Assembly (NCBI GenBank): GCA_947037125.1
Contig: CAMQTJ010000005.1
Span: 1 to 64,000, forward strand
Origin: an uncultured Holdemania sp.
GTDB lineage: Bacteria > Bacillota_I > Bacilli_A > Erysipelotrichales > Erysipelotrichaceae
Direction: 5' to 3'
DNA length: 64,000 nt
Shown here: positions 40,309 through 48,171 of the stretch, piece by piece
Position numbering within the stretch: position 1 is the stretch's first letter
How the letters are laid out: each line of letters opens with the position of its first letter
The notes under the pieces: generated by a model
Databases searched by the model: none
The model's input: the letters and a program-made list of their open reading frames with translations, nothing else
What the model was told of the DNA's origin: nothing
Translations under genes and position numbers: made by a program

Positions 40309-41289
40309 ATGAAATTTGGATTAATTGGAACAAACTTTGTATCAGAATTTTTTATGAATGGAGCAAATGAACATGCTCTATGCAATGTAGTAGCGGTTAG
40401 TGATGTAACAATGGCTGGTGCTAAAGCATTTGCTGATAAACACAATATAGAACACAGCTTTGATGATTACAAAAAAATGTGTGATGCTAATATATGTGAT
40501 GCTGTTTATATTGCTGTACCTAATGGTTTACATGCACAAATTAGTCTTTATTTTTTGCAACGTAAAATCACAGTATTTTGTGAAAAACCACTTGCTGCAA
40601 ATATTGATCAAGTAAATGAAATGATTGCATGTGCTAAAGAAAATAATACATATCTTCAAGAGGGTCTTATACCATTATATAACCCAAACTTTAAAATATT
40701 AAAAGATAGTTTACCAATGGTAGGTAAAATTCGTCAAGCAACATTTAATTTTTCGAAATATTCATCAAGATATGATGCTTATTTAAGAAATGAAAATCCT
40801 ACAACTTTTAGAGCCGATTTAGCAAATGGTGCTATTATGGATTTAGGCGTTTATATTTTTGCCGATGTAATTGGTTTATGGGGTAAACCTGTAAGCATTG
40901 AAGGGCGATGTACTTTATTAGATACAAAAGCTGATATTGCAGGAACCAGTATATTTGAATATCCAGAATTTAATGTTTCATTATCATACTCAAAAGCAAG
41001 TGACACAAATAATATTTGTGAAATTTGTGGTGAATTAGGTATTCTTACAATTGATTTTCCAAGTCAACCAAAAACAATTACCTTTACTGATCGTTTAACT
41101 CAAGAAAAAACAATTTTAAGTGTTCCTGTTTTTGAAAATTTCTATTATGAAATAGATGAAATGATTAAATGTATCAATCAAGGAAAAATTCAATCAGATT
41201 TATGCCCATTTGAAACAAGTATTGCAGTTCATGATTGTTTAACACAAGCTCGTAAAATGGCTAATATTGTTTTCCCTTGTGATAAATAA
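40309..41289 (+). CDS. Gfo/Idh/MocA oxidoreductase (copy 1)
   Basis: A 326-residue NAD(P)-dependent sugar or aldehyde oxidoreductase. The Rossmann start MKFGLIGTNFVSEFF is followed by AVSDVTMAGAKAFADKH, the CEKP motif with the catalytic Lys, and the C-terminal domain with NGAIMDLGVY. An AAGGAGAA site precedes it. It is very similar in length and sequence to the next gene. Confidence 0.88.
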   Translation: MKFGLIGTNFVSEFFMNGANEHALCNVVAVSDVTMAGAKAFADKHNIEHSFDDYKKMCDANICDAVYIAVPNGLHAQISLYFLQRKITVFCEKPLAANIDQVNEMIACAKENNTYLQEGLIPLYNPNFKILKDSLPMVGKIRQATFNFSKYSSRYDAYLRNENPTTFRADLANGAIMDLGVYIFADVIGLWGKPVSIEGRCTLLDTKADIAGTSIFEYPEFNVSLSYSKASDTNNICEICGELGILTIDFPSQPKTITFTDRLTQEKTILSVPVFENFYYEIDEMIKCINQGKIQSDLCPFETSIAVHDCLTQARKMANIVFPCDK

Positions 41290-41431: not shown

Positions 41432-42412
41432 ATGAAATTTGGAGTAATAGGAACTAACTTTGTATCTGATTTTTTCATGACAGGCTCATTAGAAAATGCA
41501 GAATGTGAAGTTGTAGCAGTAAGTGCAACATCAATGGCTAAGGCCAATTTATTTGGTGATAAATACGATATTAAACATCGCTTTGACGATTATAAAAAAA
41601 TGTTTGACGCGAACGTATGCGATGCAGTTTATGTTGCTGTACCTAACGGCTTACACGCTGAAGTAAGCATGTATTTTTTAAATCGTAAAATAGCTGTTTT
41701 TTGTGAAAAACCAATGGCATCAAATGTTGACCAAGTTATTGAAATGGTTAATTGTGCTAAAGAAAATAATACTTATCTTCAAGAGGGTTTACTTCCTTTA
41801 TATAATCCTAACTTTTTGCTTTTAAAGCAAAATTTACACATGTTAGGCAAAATTCATCAAGCATCATTTAATTTTTCAAAATATTCATCAAGATATGATG
41901 CCTATTTAAGAAATGAAAATCCAACTACATTTAGAAGCGAACTTGCCAATGGTGCAATGATGGATTTAGGTGTTTATGTATTTGGTAATGTCGTCGGTCT
42001 ATGGGGTAAGCCAATCAGTGTTTTAAGCAAAAGTACATTATTAGAAACAAAGGCTGATATTTCAGGAGTTAGTATTCTTCAATACCCTGAATTTAGTGTT
42101 TCATTATCATATTCAAAAGCAAGTGATACACAAAATCTATGTGAAATTTGTGGTGAAAAAGGTACATTCACAATTGATTCACCAAGCAGACCAAATGTCA
42201 TTACCTTTACTGATCGCTTAACTTTAGAAAAAACAATTATCAGCAAACCTATGAAAGAAGCATTTGTTTATGTTATTCAAGATATGATTAAATGTTATAA
42301 CCAAGGTAAAATTCAATCAGACTTATGCCCATTTGAAACAAGTATTGCAATCCATGATACCTTAACAAAGGCTCGTAAAATGTCTAATATTGTTTATCCT
42401 TGTGATAAATAA
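41432..42412 (+). CDS. Gfo/Idh/MocA oxidoreductase (copy 2)
   Basis: A 326-residue paralog of copy 1, of exactly equal length and about two thirds identical by eye. It shares the CEKP motif, FSKYSSRYDAYLRNENPTTF and the C-terminal GKIQSDLCPFETSIA. Each copy has its own GTGTATAATT-containing upstream region, so the duplication included the promoter. The sugar substrate is unknown. Confidence 0.88.
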   Translation: MKFGVIGTNFVSDFFMTGSLENAECEVVAVSATSMAKANLFGDKYDIKHRFDDYKKMFDANVCDAVYVAVPNGLHAEVSMYFLNRKIAVFCEKPMASNVDQVIEMVNCAKENNTYLQEGLLPLYNPNFLLLKQNLHMLGKIHQASFNFSKYSSRYDAYLRNENPTTFRSELANGAMMDLGVYVFGNVVGLWGKPISVLSKSTLLETKADISGVSILQYPEFSVSLSYSKASDTQNLCEICGEKGTFTIDSPSRPNVITFTDRLTLEKTIISKPMKEAFVYVIQDMIKCYNQGKIQSDLCPFETSIAIHDTLTKARKMSNIVYPCDK

Positions 42413-42552: not shown

Positions 42553-43191
42553 TTATTTTCGCCAATTATTTATTGATTTAATAAAATATTCATAGGTTGG
42601 ATTTTTAAGAAATTTATCTATTTCATTTAGATCACTACACCAAATAGACAATATCTTACACAAGTCACTTAAATCTTTGTCGCCATCCCTTTTTGTCTTA
42701 GTAAATATAATAATTTTAACGACTTGATTATCCCAAATTATTGGTTTTTTTAAAGTGCCAATAAAACACAATTCCTGTCTTACTATGCGATGTAAATCTT
42801 GAAGATGCAATATAGTATTTCCAAGTTCTACTACTTCAAATTGATCATCATTTGTCATTGTATTAATATACTCATTTTCGATAAACCATTGATAAATATT
42901 CTCCATTATCAATTCATTTGTATCTCCTTGAATATCAAAATAAAAGTATTCTGGTTTAATATATTTTTCTAAATCTAAATTATTCAACGAAAGTTGTCTT
43001 AGTTCATATAATATAGATTCTAAATAATTATCATCTTTAATTATATATTTAGGTATCTTATAAGTATCAGTTATATAGGTCGATATTACATAATCGATAT
43101 TTTCTTTATTTTCAATAAATTTATCATAATCATAATTATATAACATATACTTTTCATTGTTGAAATTCTCTTTTATTTCATTGAAATACAT
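42553..43191 (-). pseudogene. C-terminal part of a PRD regulator (EIIB-like end and EIIA-like domain)
   Basis: A 212-codon frame that continues in the same frame directly after the TGA of the upstream gene. Residues 1-40 complete the EIIB-like domain (NIDYVISTYI). Residues ~75-212 form a fructose/mannitol-type EIIA-like domain (ELGNTILHLQDLHRIVRQELCFIGTLKKPIIW split), as at the end of MtlR/ManR-type regulators. It may be made separately by reinitiation at the ATG after TGA, made by read-through, or be the dead end of a broken gene. No separate ribosome site is evident. Confidence 0.65.
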
Positions 43192-44463
43192 TCAGGTTTC
43201 AGCTCTACCTCTACCACTAATTAGTGCTATTTTAATCTTTTTATGACTATTCACTTTACAAATAGCCAAGTTGAAATATAAAACTAAATACCCCATTTCA
43301 TTAATATCTACTTTTATCTTATAAATATTTTCAATAATATTAACAGCAGAATGTGTAACTTTAGTTGCGAATAAGTATCTTCTTAAATTATCAAAAACTA
43401 AGGGATTGCGCATTATCATATTATCTTTTATTCTTTTTACCATTTGTGGAATATGTAGATATAAACAATTATAAAATTCAAAATCACTTTTCAAATCAAT
43501 AGCAAAATTGTTTCTAACTTCTTCAATAATAATATGTAAACATTTATTAACATTGACTCTATCTACATTATTAAAATTGTCATTTAATAAAATTTGTTTA
43601 TTTTTTAGATGTTGCATTATATATATAACTTCATTATTAGATAATTCTAGATTAAATATACACTCCATTTTTTGTGCTATATTTAATGCTGCTTTATAAA
43701 TTATATCTTCAACTTTTTCATCACTAAATTCAGTTATCATTATACTATTATTAATCTGACATCTTGATATAAGGATTAATAGATGAATCGTAATATTATT
43801 AATTGAATAATCTGACATCGCAATATTATATTTTTTTATTGTTTCTTTAACAAGTAATAATATTTGATCATAGTTTTCTCTATCATTAATTTTATATATA
43901 TTATTTTTATTGATATGATAATTTATTTCATAATTATAGTGGAAAAAGAATTCACAAATACATAATCGTTTATCAATTTCACTACCACAAATTTTCATAC
44001 CATTTTTATGTTTTGTTACAACACTTAAACGATATTTAGCTAAGATTTTTTTAGCTTCTTTAAGATGCAATAATAATGTTGTTTTCCCAACATATATTTC
44101 ATCCAATAAAACATCAATTGTAATGTAGCTATCTGTTACTAATAGTTTTTTTACGATATAAATAACTCTTTCATAATTAAAAGTTGGCGCTATATTTAAT
44201 TCTTCTAATTTATTTGTAGAAATAAAATCAAATATTTCATTAATATCCACACTATCATCAATTTCACACCAATATCCAATTCTCGCTTTAGAATTTATTT
44301 TAATTCCACGATCATTAATAACACTATTAATATACACAATATCCGATTTTATTGTTCTTACACTTGATTGAACAAAGGTCGCTAATTGAGTAGCTGTGAT
44401 ATTATGTTGCGAATCAATTATCTTTTTCAGTACTAATTTTTGTCTTTTATTAATTATCTCCAT
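43192..44463 (-). pseudogene. PRD/BglG-type transcriptional activator, N-terminal part, stopped by in-frame TGA
   Basis: A 423-residue regulator with two N-terminal helix-turn-helix domains (about 1-165; ITATQLATFVQSSVRTIKSD), two PRD domains (about 170-400; NNITIHLLILISRC, LYLHIPQM) and the start of an EIIB-like domain (KKIKIALISGRGRAET). TGA then interrupts it, and the next frame goes on with no shift. It lies just downstream of a mannose-family PTS operon, which it probably activates. It has its own promoter. Whether the truncated form is active is unknown. Confidence 0.7.
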
Positions 44464-44485
44464 GCTACCTCCAATTGTTTGATAT

Positions 44486-44582: not shown

Positions 44583-45401
44583 TTATAAAATACCAATCAT
44601 TGAACCAATAATTCCAACAGCTATAGTAATTAGTAATATAGTTGTTGATTTATAGCCCTTTTTAAGTAATCCAAACATTGTTAGAGTATAGCAAAATGGT
44701 AATAACAATGGGAATATTTGATCTAAGTATGTTTGCATAGCAAAGCTTGTTTCACCAATTGTAAATGATAATGGAGTAACCATTGTAACCATTGATGCAC
44801 TCATTCCACCAATTACCATTAATCCTACAATAGTTGCACCTTTAGAAATCATTTCTAAAATACCACTGTCTTTCGCATCATTCATTAAGCTAGTTCCAAA
44901 AACATAACCATAACGAGCCCCTAAATATCTAACGATAAGATGTGGAACATTAAAGATTAATAAAAACATAATTGCTCCAAGAATACTACCTTGTTGTGCT
45001 AAAGAAATACCGATACCAGCTGCTATTATTCTTACAGTTCCCCAAAAGAATGAATCACCAATTCCTGCAAGTGGTCCCATAAGACCAACTTTAACATTGT
45101 TGATTATCGTAACATCAAAATCCGGATTTTCACTTGCTTCTTTTTCTAATACTGTTGCAATACCTGTAATAGCTGTAACGATGTGAGGTGTTGTATTAAA
45201 GATTGTCATATGTCTTGTAAGTGCTTGTGCGCGTTGTTCAGTTGTTTTATAATATCTTTTAATTGCAGGCCACATACCTATAGCAAAACCTAATGATTGT
45301 TGTCTTTCGTAGTTGTAACATGATTCTAAATGAAATGATGACCAAAATATTTCGTTTATAATTTTTTTATCTTCTCTAGTTAATTTTTCTATTTTACTCA
45401 T
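44583..45401 (-). CDS. PTS mannose-family EIID
   Basis: A 272-residue EIID subunit. The start MSKIEKLTREDKK at 45401 gives an eight-base overlap with the EIIC gene and sits at a normal distance from GAGG; an ATG 12 bases upstream is possible. Hallmarks are FHLESCYNYERQQSLGFAIGM, GPLAGIGDSFFWGT and the C-terminal membrane helices. With EIIC it forms the channel. Confidence 0.92.
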   Translation of the reverse strand: MSKIEKLTREDKKIINEIFWSSFHLESCYNYERQQSLGFAIGMWPAIKRYYKTTEQRAQALTRHMTIFNTTPHIVTAITGIATVLEKEASENPDFDVTIINNVKVGLMGPLAGIGDSFFWGTVRIIAAGIGISLAQQGSILGAIMFLLIFNVPHLIVRYLGARYGYVFGTSLMNDAKDSGILEMISKGATIVGLMVIGGMSASMVTMVTPLSFTIGETSFAMQTYLDQIFPLLLPFCYTLTMFGLLKKGYKSTTILLITIAVGIIGSMIGIL

Positions 45402-46164
45402 CAAATAATCCATCCTCTTCTATTGCTGCTGCTGTTTTCATTGTTGGGCCTTTTTCAAAAGTTATGATAAAAGCAAATACTACACCAATGATTGTTATCG
45501 CTAATACTGGTAAGTGTAAATAAGCTAGTAATACGAAACCAAATACGAAATACAAACAGTTTTTTGCATTCATCATTGGTTGTACTAATAGAGCAAACCC
45601 TACAGCTGGCAATAATCCCCCTGCAACTTTTAATCCATTTAAAACTACATCTGGAATTTGTGCAATAAATAATTCAACAGCATCAGATCCAAATGTTATT
45701 GCCACAAAGGCAACTGTAAAATACATAAAACATTGAAGTAATAAACCACCAAAGTTAAGCATAACTAAACCTCTTATATTTGCTTGTTTTGCTAAACGCA
45801 TTGCCAAATCCATAAATGAACTTCTTACAATGAATACAATTACTTTAAGAGATTGCGCTAAAATAGCAATAGGTAATCCAAGGGCTAATGCAATGTCTGC
45901 ACCTTGTCCACTAATAATTGCAAACGCTGTTCCAAGACCTGCACCAACTAAAACATCAGGTGGAACTGCTGCCCCTACTTGAATGGCACCCATAAAGACT
46001 AATTCAAGTGTAGCTCCAATTAAAATACCTGTTTCTAAATCACCACAAATTGCTCCAACAATTGGTGAAACAACGATTGGTCTTATAACCATTGGTGTTC
46101 CGCCAACTTTTTCTAAAAACCATAATACTGCTAAAGCTAACCCTACTAAAAACGCTTCATTCAT
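45394..46164 (-). CDS. PTS mannose-family EIIC
   Basis: A 256-residue EIIC of the mannose/sorbose family with about seven hydrophobic helices. Conserved stretches are RPIVVSPIVGAICGDLETGILIGATLELVF (in parts) and GAAVPPDVLVGAGLGTAFAI. It overlaps the EIID gene and lies 17 bases after the EIIB stop. Confidence 0.92.
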   Translation of the reverse strand: MNEAFLVGLALAVLWFLEKVGGTPMVIRPIVVSPIVGAICGDLETGILIGATLELVFMGAIQVGAAVPPDVLVGAGLGTAFAIISGQGADIALALGLPIAILAQSLKVIVFIVRSSFMDLAMRLAKQANIRGLVMLNFGGLLLQCFMYFTVAFVAITFGSDAVELFIAQIPDVVLNGLKVAGGLLPAVGFALLVQPMMNAKNCLYFVFGFVLLAYLHLPVLAITIIGVVFAFIITFEKGPTMKTAAAIEEDGLFDE

Positions 46165-46181: not shown

Positions 46182-46667
46182 TTAAAGTGTTACTTTTTTT
46201 CTTAAATCATTAAAGTTTAATACACTTGTTGATGGTACTTCTTGTACTTCAATTTTATAGCCTTTTTCATTCATTATATCTAAATATTCAAGATCTTCTT
46301 TACCAACATATACAGCTTTTGAAAAGAATACTTTATGATCTTCTTTTTGCATCCCACCAAGATTAACAACAGGCTTATCATCAATTAATTCTAATAAACG
46401 CTGTGCACTTTTAGGATTGGCAACAATTACAAATACCTTCATTTTCGCAAGCTTATCATTTTTTAGTAATTTTGCTGCATCTTCAATTGATCTTGTTGCT
46501 AATTTAACACCATCTGGACAACATAATTTGATTGTCGTTTTTCTTAAATCATCAGCTGCTGCTTCATCACTTGCAATAACAATTGCATCATATGCTAATG
46601 CTGCTTTCCAAGAATAAGCCACTTGACCATGAAGTAATCTTTCATCAATTCTTAATTTTAATATCAT
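46182..46667 (-). CDS. PTS mannose-family EIIB
   Basis: A 161-residue EIIB. The start MILKLRIDERLLHGQV at 46667 was chosen for its AAAGGAG site; the phosphorylated residue is His13 in LLHGQV. The rest (DAIVIASDEAAADDLRKTTIKL, KVFVIVANPKSAQRLLEL, VNLGGMQ) is typical. It passes phosphate from EIIA to the incoming sugar. Confidence 0.92.
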   Translation of the reverse strand: MILKLRIDERLLHGQVAYSWKAALAYDAIVIASDEAAADDLRKTTIKLCCPDGVKLATRSIEDAAKLLKNDKLAKMKVFVIVANPKSAQRLLELIDDKPVVNLGGMQKEDHKVFFSKAVYVGKEDLEYLDIMNEKGYKIEVQEVPSTSVLNFNDLRKKVTL

Positions 46668-46683
46668 TATTATTCTCCTTTTT

Positions 46684-47103
46684 TTAATCGAAATCATCGC
46701 CACTTGAAGTAGCTTGTACTAATTTGTTAACATACATTAATTGATCTTTAGATCCATTTATTGCTTCTTCAATTGCACTACTTGTTAATAAAACACTATC
46801 ATCCATTAATAATATTTCTAAAAATACAGGTAAGTTTGTACCAGTAATTAAATGTGTATTTGCTCTATTTAGTCTTTGCATTAATGATTGATTAACACTT
46901 CCACCAAACATATCACTAAAGATAATTAGTTCATCATTTTCATCTAGTGAATTAAAGTAATTTTCTAATTTATCGTTCAAATTAATTTCATCTACATAAG
47001 CATTGATTGCTTCTACATTTTCTTCTTTACCTACAATAATTTTTGCAGCGCTTTTAAATCCTTGTGCTAAATTACCGTGTGATGCTATTAGTATTTTTCT
47101 CAT
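46684..47103 (-). CDS. PTS mannose-family EIIA
   Basis: A 139-residue EIIA with the N-terminal active site ILIASHGNLAQG (His9) and IIFSDMFGGSVNQSLM, NLPVFLEIL. A separate EIIA, rather than an EIIAB fusion, is characteristic of the fructoselysine/glucoselysine and related branches of this PTS family. It starts nine bases after the SIS gene. Confidence 0.9.
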   Translation of the reverse strand: MRKILIASHGNLAQGFKSAAKIIVGKEENVEAINAYVDEINLNDKLENYFNSLDENDELIIFSDMFGGSVNQSLMQRLNRANTHLITGTNLPVFLEILLMDDSVLLTSSAIEEAINGSKDQLMYVNKLVQATSSGDDFD

Positions 47104-47112
47104 TTTCTACTC

Positions 47113-48171
47113 CTATACAGTTTTTGTAATATATTGATTAATTGAAGAATTTACACTTCTTTTTAAGTCTCGCCCATGATTTGTTGCATGATGATATCCA
47201 ACTGTTTGAAATACTGTGATGTATTCAATAAAGCTGAAATATTTACTCGCAGGATTAATATTTAAATCTTTATGATCAAGTTGATAATCACCAATAATTG
47301 AACAATAGCCTATTTCATTTTTCAAAAATTTCGCAATTGCTATAGCTTTTTCTTGATCTTCAGATGATCTTGATAAAACAAAAAAGATTGTATCATCATC
47401 AAATGCATTTTGTGGACCATGGATAAATTCTTCAAGTTCAAAACTTCTTGTTACCATTGGTACCATTTCCATGATTTTAATATCGGCTTCTTGGGCAACT
47501 GCATATAAATCATTAGTTCCAGCCAACATAACTTTACTACGTTTCATTAAGCCAAATTTATTCTCGTTATACCAATTATTTGTACTTTCAACGATTTTGT
47601 CTAAGTTATTTATCCCTTTTACAAGATCACTTAGATAATAATCAAGTTTTTTTTGATCGATTGAATTGTTACTTTTTGCTAATTTCAACAGTAATATTAA
47701 AGATGTAACAACACTTGTGCTATAACCAATTGTGCGATACATATAAGGTTCATTTCCACACCCTATTTCAATTGGACAATCTGATGTTTTTGATATAATA
47801 CTTGTAAAACTTGAAGTTAGTGCAACATTTTTTAAGTTATTTTCCTTGATTTTATTTAAAGCTTCAAATACAAGTTTTGTTGAACCACCTTGTGAAATTA
47901 CAACATATAAACAATTTGGATCTAGTTGAGCACTATAATTAACAAACATATTAGGATAATAATAATCACATCTAATTCCTAAGTAACGTTCACTAAATCC
48001 TTTTAAAACAAATACTGCATTGTAAGAAGACCCGCTTGCAATAAATGCAATTCTTGTAATCTTTTGCTTGTTGATATATGTTTCAAATTCTTGAAAATTT
48101 TGTTGATTTTCATCTACTAATTTTTTTAAATAATTAGGTATACTTTCGATACTATTCAATAATGTACTCAT
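47113..48171 (-). CDS. SIS-domain sugar-phosphate deglycase/isomerase (FrlB/AgaS-like)
   Basis: A 352-residue double-SIS protein of the GlmS-isomerase/FrlB type. Domain 1 contains IAFIASGSSYNAVF and VVISQGGSTKLVFEAL. Domain 2 has VMLAGTNDLYAVAQEADIK and the catalytic-type FELEEFIHGPQNAF. Together with the mannose-family PTS behind it, this fits uptake and cleavage of an amino-sugar or Amadori compound such as a fructosamine. The exact substrate is inference. It is the first gene of the operon with a strong AGGAGG site. Confidence 0.8.
   Translation of the reverse strand: MSTLLNSIESIPNYLKKLVDENQQNFQEFETYINKQKITRIAFIASGSSYNAVFVLKGFSERYLGIRCDYYYPNMFVNYSAQLDPNCLYVVISQGGSTKLVFEALNKIKENNLKNVALTSSFTSIISKTSDCPIEIGCGNEPYMYRTIGYSTSVVTSLILLLKLAKSNNSIDQKKLDYYLSDLVKGINNLDKIVESTNNWYNENKFGLMKRSKVMLAGTNDLYAVAQEADIKIMEMVPMVTRSFELEEFIHGPQNAFDDDTIFFVLSRSSEDQEKAIAIAKFLKNEIGYCSIIGDYQLDHKDLNINPASKYFSFIEYITVFQTVGYHHATNHGRDLKRSVNSSINQYITKTV

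Follow-up and report, generated by a model that had tools for sequence, protein, structure and literature searches.

The window analysed here is a stretch of 64,000 nucleotides from an uncultured Holdemania sp. On its minus strand, a presumed operon opens with the gene of a SIS-domain sugar-phosphate enzyme, continues with PTS genes in the order EIIA, EIIB, EIIC and EIID, and is closed by a gene that would encode an MtlR/ManR-like PRD-containing multidomain transcription regulator (Table 1). When positions 42553-44463 are translated on this strand, a single frame is followed through 423 codons, a TGA, an ATG, 211 more codons and a TAA; the plus strand has no open frame across the same interval. 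The preliminary description of this locus had reported an in-frame TGA followed by ATG with the frame unchanged, which is borne out by the translation, and its coordinates were right, although it lacked the strand, here shown to be the minus one. A frameshift is ruled out, as the frame is unbroken and both parts align to relatives in one frame. Nor is the split regulator a chance match, since its 5′ and 3′ parts both align end to end with one contiguous protein in relatives. Two similar tandem genes for Gfo/Idh/MocA-type oxidoreductases of 326 aa each lie convergent with the regulator.

Table 1. Features of the window and of related loci referred to in the text.
Feature	Sequence	Position	Strand	Remarks
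SIS-domain sugar-phosphate enzyme (GlmS, deaminase or deglycase-like), opening the presumed operon	window	47113..48171	-	Pfam SIS 59.7 bits; NCBIfam glmS-like, below cut-offs
Mannose-family PTS EIIA	window	46684..47103	-	NCBIfam AgaF 74 bits, TIGR00824 53 bits, below cut-offs
Mannose-family PTS EIIB	window	46182..46667	-	NCBIfam TIGR00854 103 bits, below cut-off
Mannose-family PTS EIIC	window	45394..46164	-	NCBIfam AgaW 209 bits, TIGR00822 161 bits, below cut-offs
Mannose-family PTS EIID, directly upstream of regulator	window	44583..45413	-	NCBIfam TIGR00828 230 bits, below cut-off
Shine-Dalgarno-like GGAGGT ahead of the true regulator start (ATG at 44463)	window	44467..44472	-	from sequence; hybridisation energy -8.8 kcal/mol
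5′ part of PRD regulator gene	window	43192..44463	-	423 codons + TGA; HTH_11-like, Mga HTH, PRD1, PRD2, first strand and loop of EIIB-like domain
In-frame TGA (codon 424), ATG directly after	window	43192..43194	-	sense codon in all relatives checked
ATG after TGA	window	43191-43189	-	from translation
3′ part of PRD regulator gene	window	42553..43191	-	212 codons + TAA; remainder of EIIB-like domain and EIIA-like domain
Gfo/Idh/MocA-type oxidoreductase	window	41432-42412	+	
Gfo/Idh/MocA-type oxidoreductase	window	40309-41289	+	
Extra EIIB-like gene	L027	3040-3519		
Extra EIIB-like gene	L028	5904-6383		
Extra EIIB-like gene	L029	7890-8369		
Extra EIIB-like gene	L030	7946-8410		
Extra EIIB-like gene	L037	7939-8415		
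PRD regulator	L123 (G158:C1)			TGA near codon 53
PRD regulator	L124 (G128:C4)			TAA near codon 100

The succession of SIS, EIIB, EIIC and EIID genes and then an intact regulator was found at five loci of relatives (two Clostridium, one Hungatella, L028 and L029), where the list of neighbouring ORFs had a 150-codon cut-off under which a short EIIA would go unlisted. Its position after the PTS genes and the neighbours common to relatives make the regulator a candidate activator of the adjoining PTS operon. In the literature, nothing usable on mannose-PTS/SIS operons with PRD regulators was found. In the Clostridium loci and L027-L029, the regulator is directly followed by an additional EIIB-like gene of mannose type, which the window lacks; in L027-L029 this gene overlaps the regulator stop by 4 bases.

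In the 5′ part, Pfam models detected the Mga HTH (42.4 bits, above the cut-off of 21.1) and PRD (60.3 bits, in two stretches), and the regulator has two PRDs, whose identity is supported by a match of its profile to LicT PRD structures. HTH_11 reached 21.3 bits, under its cut-off of 25, compared with 46-54 bits in orthologues, and the 3′ part matched PTS_EIIA_2 with 27.9 bits at a cut-off of 27. The scores of the window HTH and PRD domains lie below those of the orthologues, which may be due to the strong A+T-driven amino-acid bias of the window protein (FYMINK 0.47). The NCBIfam AcpB/EbpR/MafR model gave 64 bits for the regulator, below its cut-off of 130. An AlphaFold2 model was built for the read-through protein, the TGA being read as Leu for modelling only (mean pLDDT 82.9). 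Its best PDB matches by Foldseek were 4r6i, 5way and 3sqn, corresponding to AtxA, MgaSpn and an Enterococcus Mga-family regulator, together with weak matches to GatB (5gqs, 1tvm) and EIIA CmtB (2oq3). The EIIB-like domain of the model has its first strand at residues 410-415 and its first helix at 421-433. As modelled, codon 424 falls three residues into this helix and the stop breaks the EIIB-like domain, so that, of this domain, the first protein would retain no more than the initial strand and loop, which the second would be without. The break had previously been placed between the DNA-binding/PRD part and the EIIA-like domain; the latter indeed lies in the second part, yet there is no clean gap at the stop. 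Likewise, uncoupling of activation from PTS control, proposed on the same basis, is a possible consequence, but the stop leaves no clean modular split.

With the order HTH, Mga HTH, PRD1, PRD2, EIIB-like and EIIA-like, and with adjoining PTS genes, the regulator resembles PRD activators of the MtlR/ManR/LicR type, from which it differs by being interrupted inside the EIIB-like domain and by standing beside a mannose-family PTS. Relatives hold all domains in one intact polypeptide, whereas the window copy fails to do so owing to the TGA. Its EIIB-like loop, ALISGRGRAE, also differs from the MtlR/ManR/LicR type, for its SGRGRAE stretch has no Cys at the phosphorylatable position; the Cys is present in some relatives (L012, L019) and absent from the closest ones (L026-L030, L037). 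PRD-containing virulence regulators such as AtxA, Mga and MafR share the HTH, the two PRDs and the EIIB-like domain; however, they end after a complete EIIB-like domain, while in the window the stop lies inside it and an EIIA part follows.

Relatives were sought in the bacterial family and order as well as in GTDB genome contigs, with one genome per species. More than 20 related loci (27-45% identity) were found, each a single ORF of some 625-650 codons that no stop interrupts. The closest are those of Clostridium simiarum (L037, 45%) and C. polynesiense (L030, 44%), followed by Erysipelotrichaceae MAGs (40-41%) and Hungatella (31-32%). At the column of the TGA, close relatives have Val, Ile, Thr, Ala or Leu, and Glu or Gln is found in L025, L002, L006 and L057, which are more distant; Arg, Trp or Cys never occurs there among the close relatives aligned. 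An origin by CGA to TGA, suggested in the preliminary description, is thus disfavoured, no relative having Arg at this column, and a single change from TTA (Leu, the most used Leu codon here) or from TCA (Ser) is a better fit. No relative checked has a stop at the TGA site; a look for a stop conserved across orthologues had been proposed in the preliminary description. The stop column and the codon after it read ACC ATG in C. simiarum and GCC ATG in C. polynesiense, and the six closest relatives keep the ATG; the Met codon therefore predates the stop. The regulator orthologue is absent from the three other genomes of the genus, whose SIS homologues are distant (about 23% identity). Neither a near-identical copy of the locus in a DNA search of 60 relatives, nor another allele in an exact-pattern scan of viral contigs, nor a match in GTDB genome contigs queried with the N part alone was found. 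Within the same bacterial family, two further PRD regulators each have a single in-frame stop in an otherwise intact sequence. These isolated stops, at unrelated positions in the G128 and G158 regulators, indicate that such mutations are sporadic in the family.

The use of UGA in this genome was assessed on 373 predicted ORFs of at least 120 codons in 464 kb, where 271 end with TAA, 72 with TAG and 30 with TGA. UGA had been called an ordinary stop in this genome, which is correct, though it is a minority one. Only the regulator, among the 30 ORFs ending with TGA, has at least 50 open codons beyond it. Release factor 2 (RF2) was found above cut-off and the genome sample has 688 TGG codons. Reading of UGA as Trp is accordingly rejected, given RF2, the other ORFs that UGA ends and the long open frame beyond the stop in the regulator only. 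Selenocysteine is rejected as well: no model for SelB or tRNA-Sec was matched above cut-off in the genome (the best SelB match covers the GTPase part only, in an ORF of EF-Tu length), no homologue has Cys at the site, and neither an Rfam element nor a stable RNA structure was found around the stop (z -0.5). Programmed read-through is dismissed on this lack of RNA structure and of a stop common to relatives. A more general read-through, with Trp or another residue inserted at the UGA, could yield some full-length regulator, perhaps more under stress. In E. coli reporters no stop is leakier than UGA, and Trp is the residue inserted most often (PMC11126739). Bacterial genes with in-frame stops often retain a dN/dS below 1, although most such stops are short-lived (PMC7918605). 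Basal leakiness requires no special mechanism. Still, of the positive signs that could point to read-through (a common stop, a downstream structure, Sec machinery above cut-off, or Trp or Cys at the site) none was seen, and we hold it to be highly improbable.

An assembly or consensus error, with a true codon that is sense, is very unlikely too. In its favour, the genome is a draft of 135 contigs and the remainder of the gene is intact; yet the change is a single substitution, it lies inside a contig of 64.8 kb, the sequence around it has no frameshift, and split genes are not in excess in the 464 kb sample.

Neither part of the gene shows a sign of decay in comparisons of invariant columns and of identity ratios. 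Of 28 columns that do not vary among the other 17 sequences, none is changed in the window protein; it departs at 5 of 62 nearly invariant columns, as intact relatives also do within their range. Identity in the C part relative to that in the N part, at 0.81 to 1.10, lies within the range seen between intact pairs. A rough neutral simulation with assumed rates suggested that a few per cent of divergence would usually be enough for the C part to acquire a further stop or indel, and in this light an undecayed C part implies that the mutation is recent or that the C part is still used. On the sequence comparisons, the intact residues would fit a very recent mutation and, equally, two proteins under selection, which they cannot separate.

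That the C part is conserved like the N part, with the family-invariant residues kept, speaks for a functional gene fission, in which stop and ATG give two coupled proteins by termination-reinitiation that act together or separately, the regulator being freed from EIIB/EIIA control. The spacing between stop and ATG is zero; coupled translation depends on genes that overlap or lie very close together, a distance of +2 nt being still effective in E. coli (PMC10666635). In this genome, other ORFs likewise begin with an ATG that immediately follows an in-frame stop. Moreover, PRD regulators naturally without an EIIA domain exist, namely the PCVRs (PMC8560693). Yet the break in helix 1 of the EIIB-like domain leaves neither part with a complete domain, the split is common to no relative, and the ATG was already a Met codon in the ancestor. 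Upstream of this ATG, a pairing energy of -5.1 kcal/mol rests on a Shine-Dalgarno-like GAGG about 16 nt away, which is part of the codons for the conserved GRGR loop, and the best pairing at the usual spacing is only -2.1 kcal/mol. Reinitiation, one of the options first put forward, is thus physically plausible at zero spacing, but it would have to use an ancestral ATG whose only good Shine-Dalgarno-like match is distant. Some C-terminal fragment may be made, with no pointer to an evolved start site. Altogether, we regard a functional fission as rather unlikely. More specifically, a young functional fission, in which a DNA-binding/PRD protein and, translationally coupled to it, an EIIB/EIIA-like sensor fragment are made separately and can rejoin so that PTS control is exerted in trans, seems quite improbable.

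The most probable explanation, which we hold with good though not full confidence, is a recent lineage-specific nonsense mutation that leaves the regulator truncated and probably impaired, while reinitiation possibly yields some C-terminal fragment. Among the options of the preliminary description it is the best supported, and the locus has the features of a nonsense-mutated gene, that is, a single disruptive stop, homologous sequence intact on both sides, and a sense codon in all relatives checked. A point mutation, in the simplest case a change of TTA or TCA to TGA, would halt translation at codon 424, and ribosomes would mainly make a 423-residue protein without EIIB- and EIIA-like domains. 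Such a protein is probably impaired, since characterised relatives use the EIIB-like domain to dimerise and to sense the PTS. Termination-reinitiation at the adjacent Met codon may add a little of a 212-residue C-terminal fragment. In AtxA and Mga, dimerisation and activity need the EIIB-like domain (PMC8560693), while in MtlR phosphorylation of this domain keeps the regulator inactive (PMC11537053). By analogy with these roles, the likeliest guess would be loss of function, followed by loss of PTS control.

Events of this kind are documented. The closest parallel is the gadR L374* allele of Listeria monocytogenes (lmo2365/lmo2364), in a PRD regulator of the RofA family, where one in-frame stop gives two adjacent ORFs, annotated as such in EGD-e, beside the operon that is served and in some lineages only; premature stops in this gene were linked to acid sensitivity (PMC10746197). 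GadR differs from the window regulator in that no EIIA domain is described for it, its stop varies between strains and the effect of its premature stops was tested (PMC10746197). Nonsense alleles have also been documented in Streptococcus mga, nra and ralp3 (PMC7571705; PMC8560693). The split in the window is most likely an ordinary event of this documented kind and not a new mechanism, the Met codon after the stop being coincidental but ancestral.

The junction calls for caution, as the TGA-ATG succession looks designed, yet its Met is ancestral and its stop is private to the window genome among those checked. Should the split allele be fixed and its two parts both be made, it would offer a natural test of EIIB/EIIA control of PRD activators in trans.
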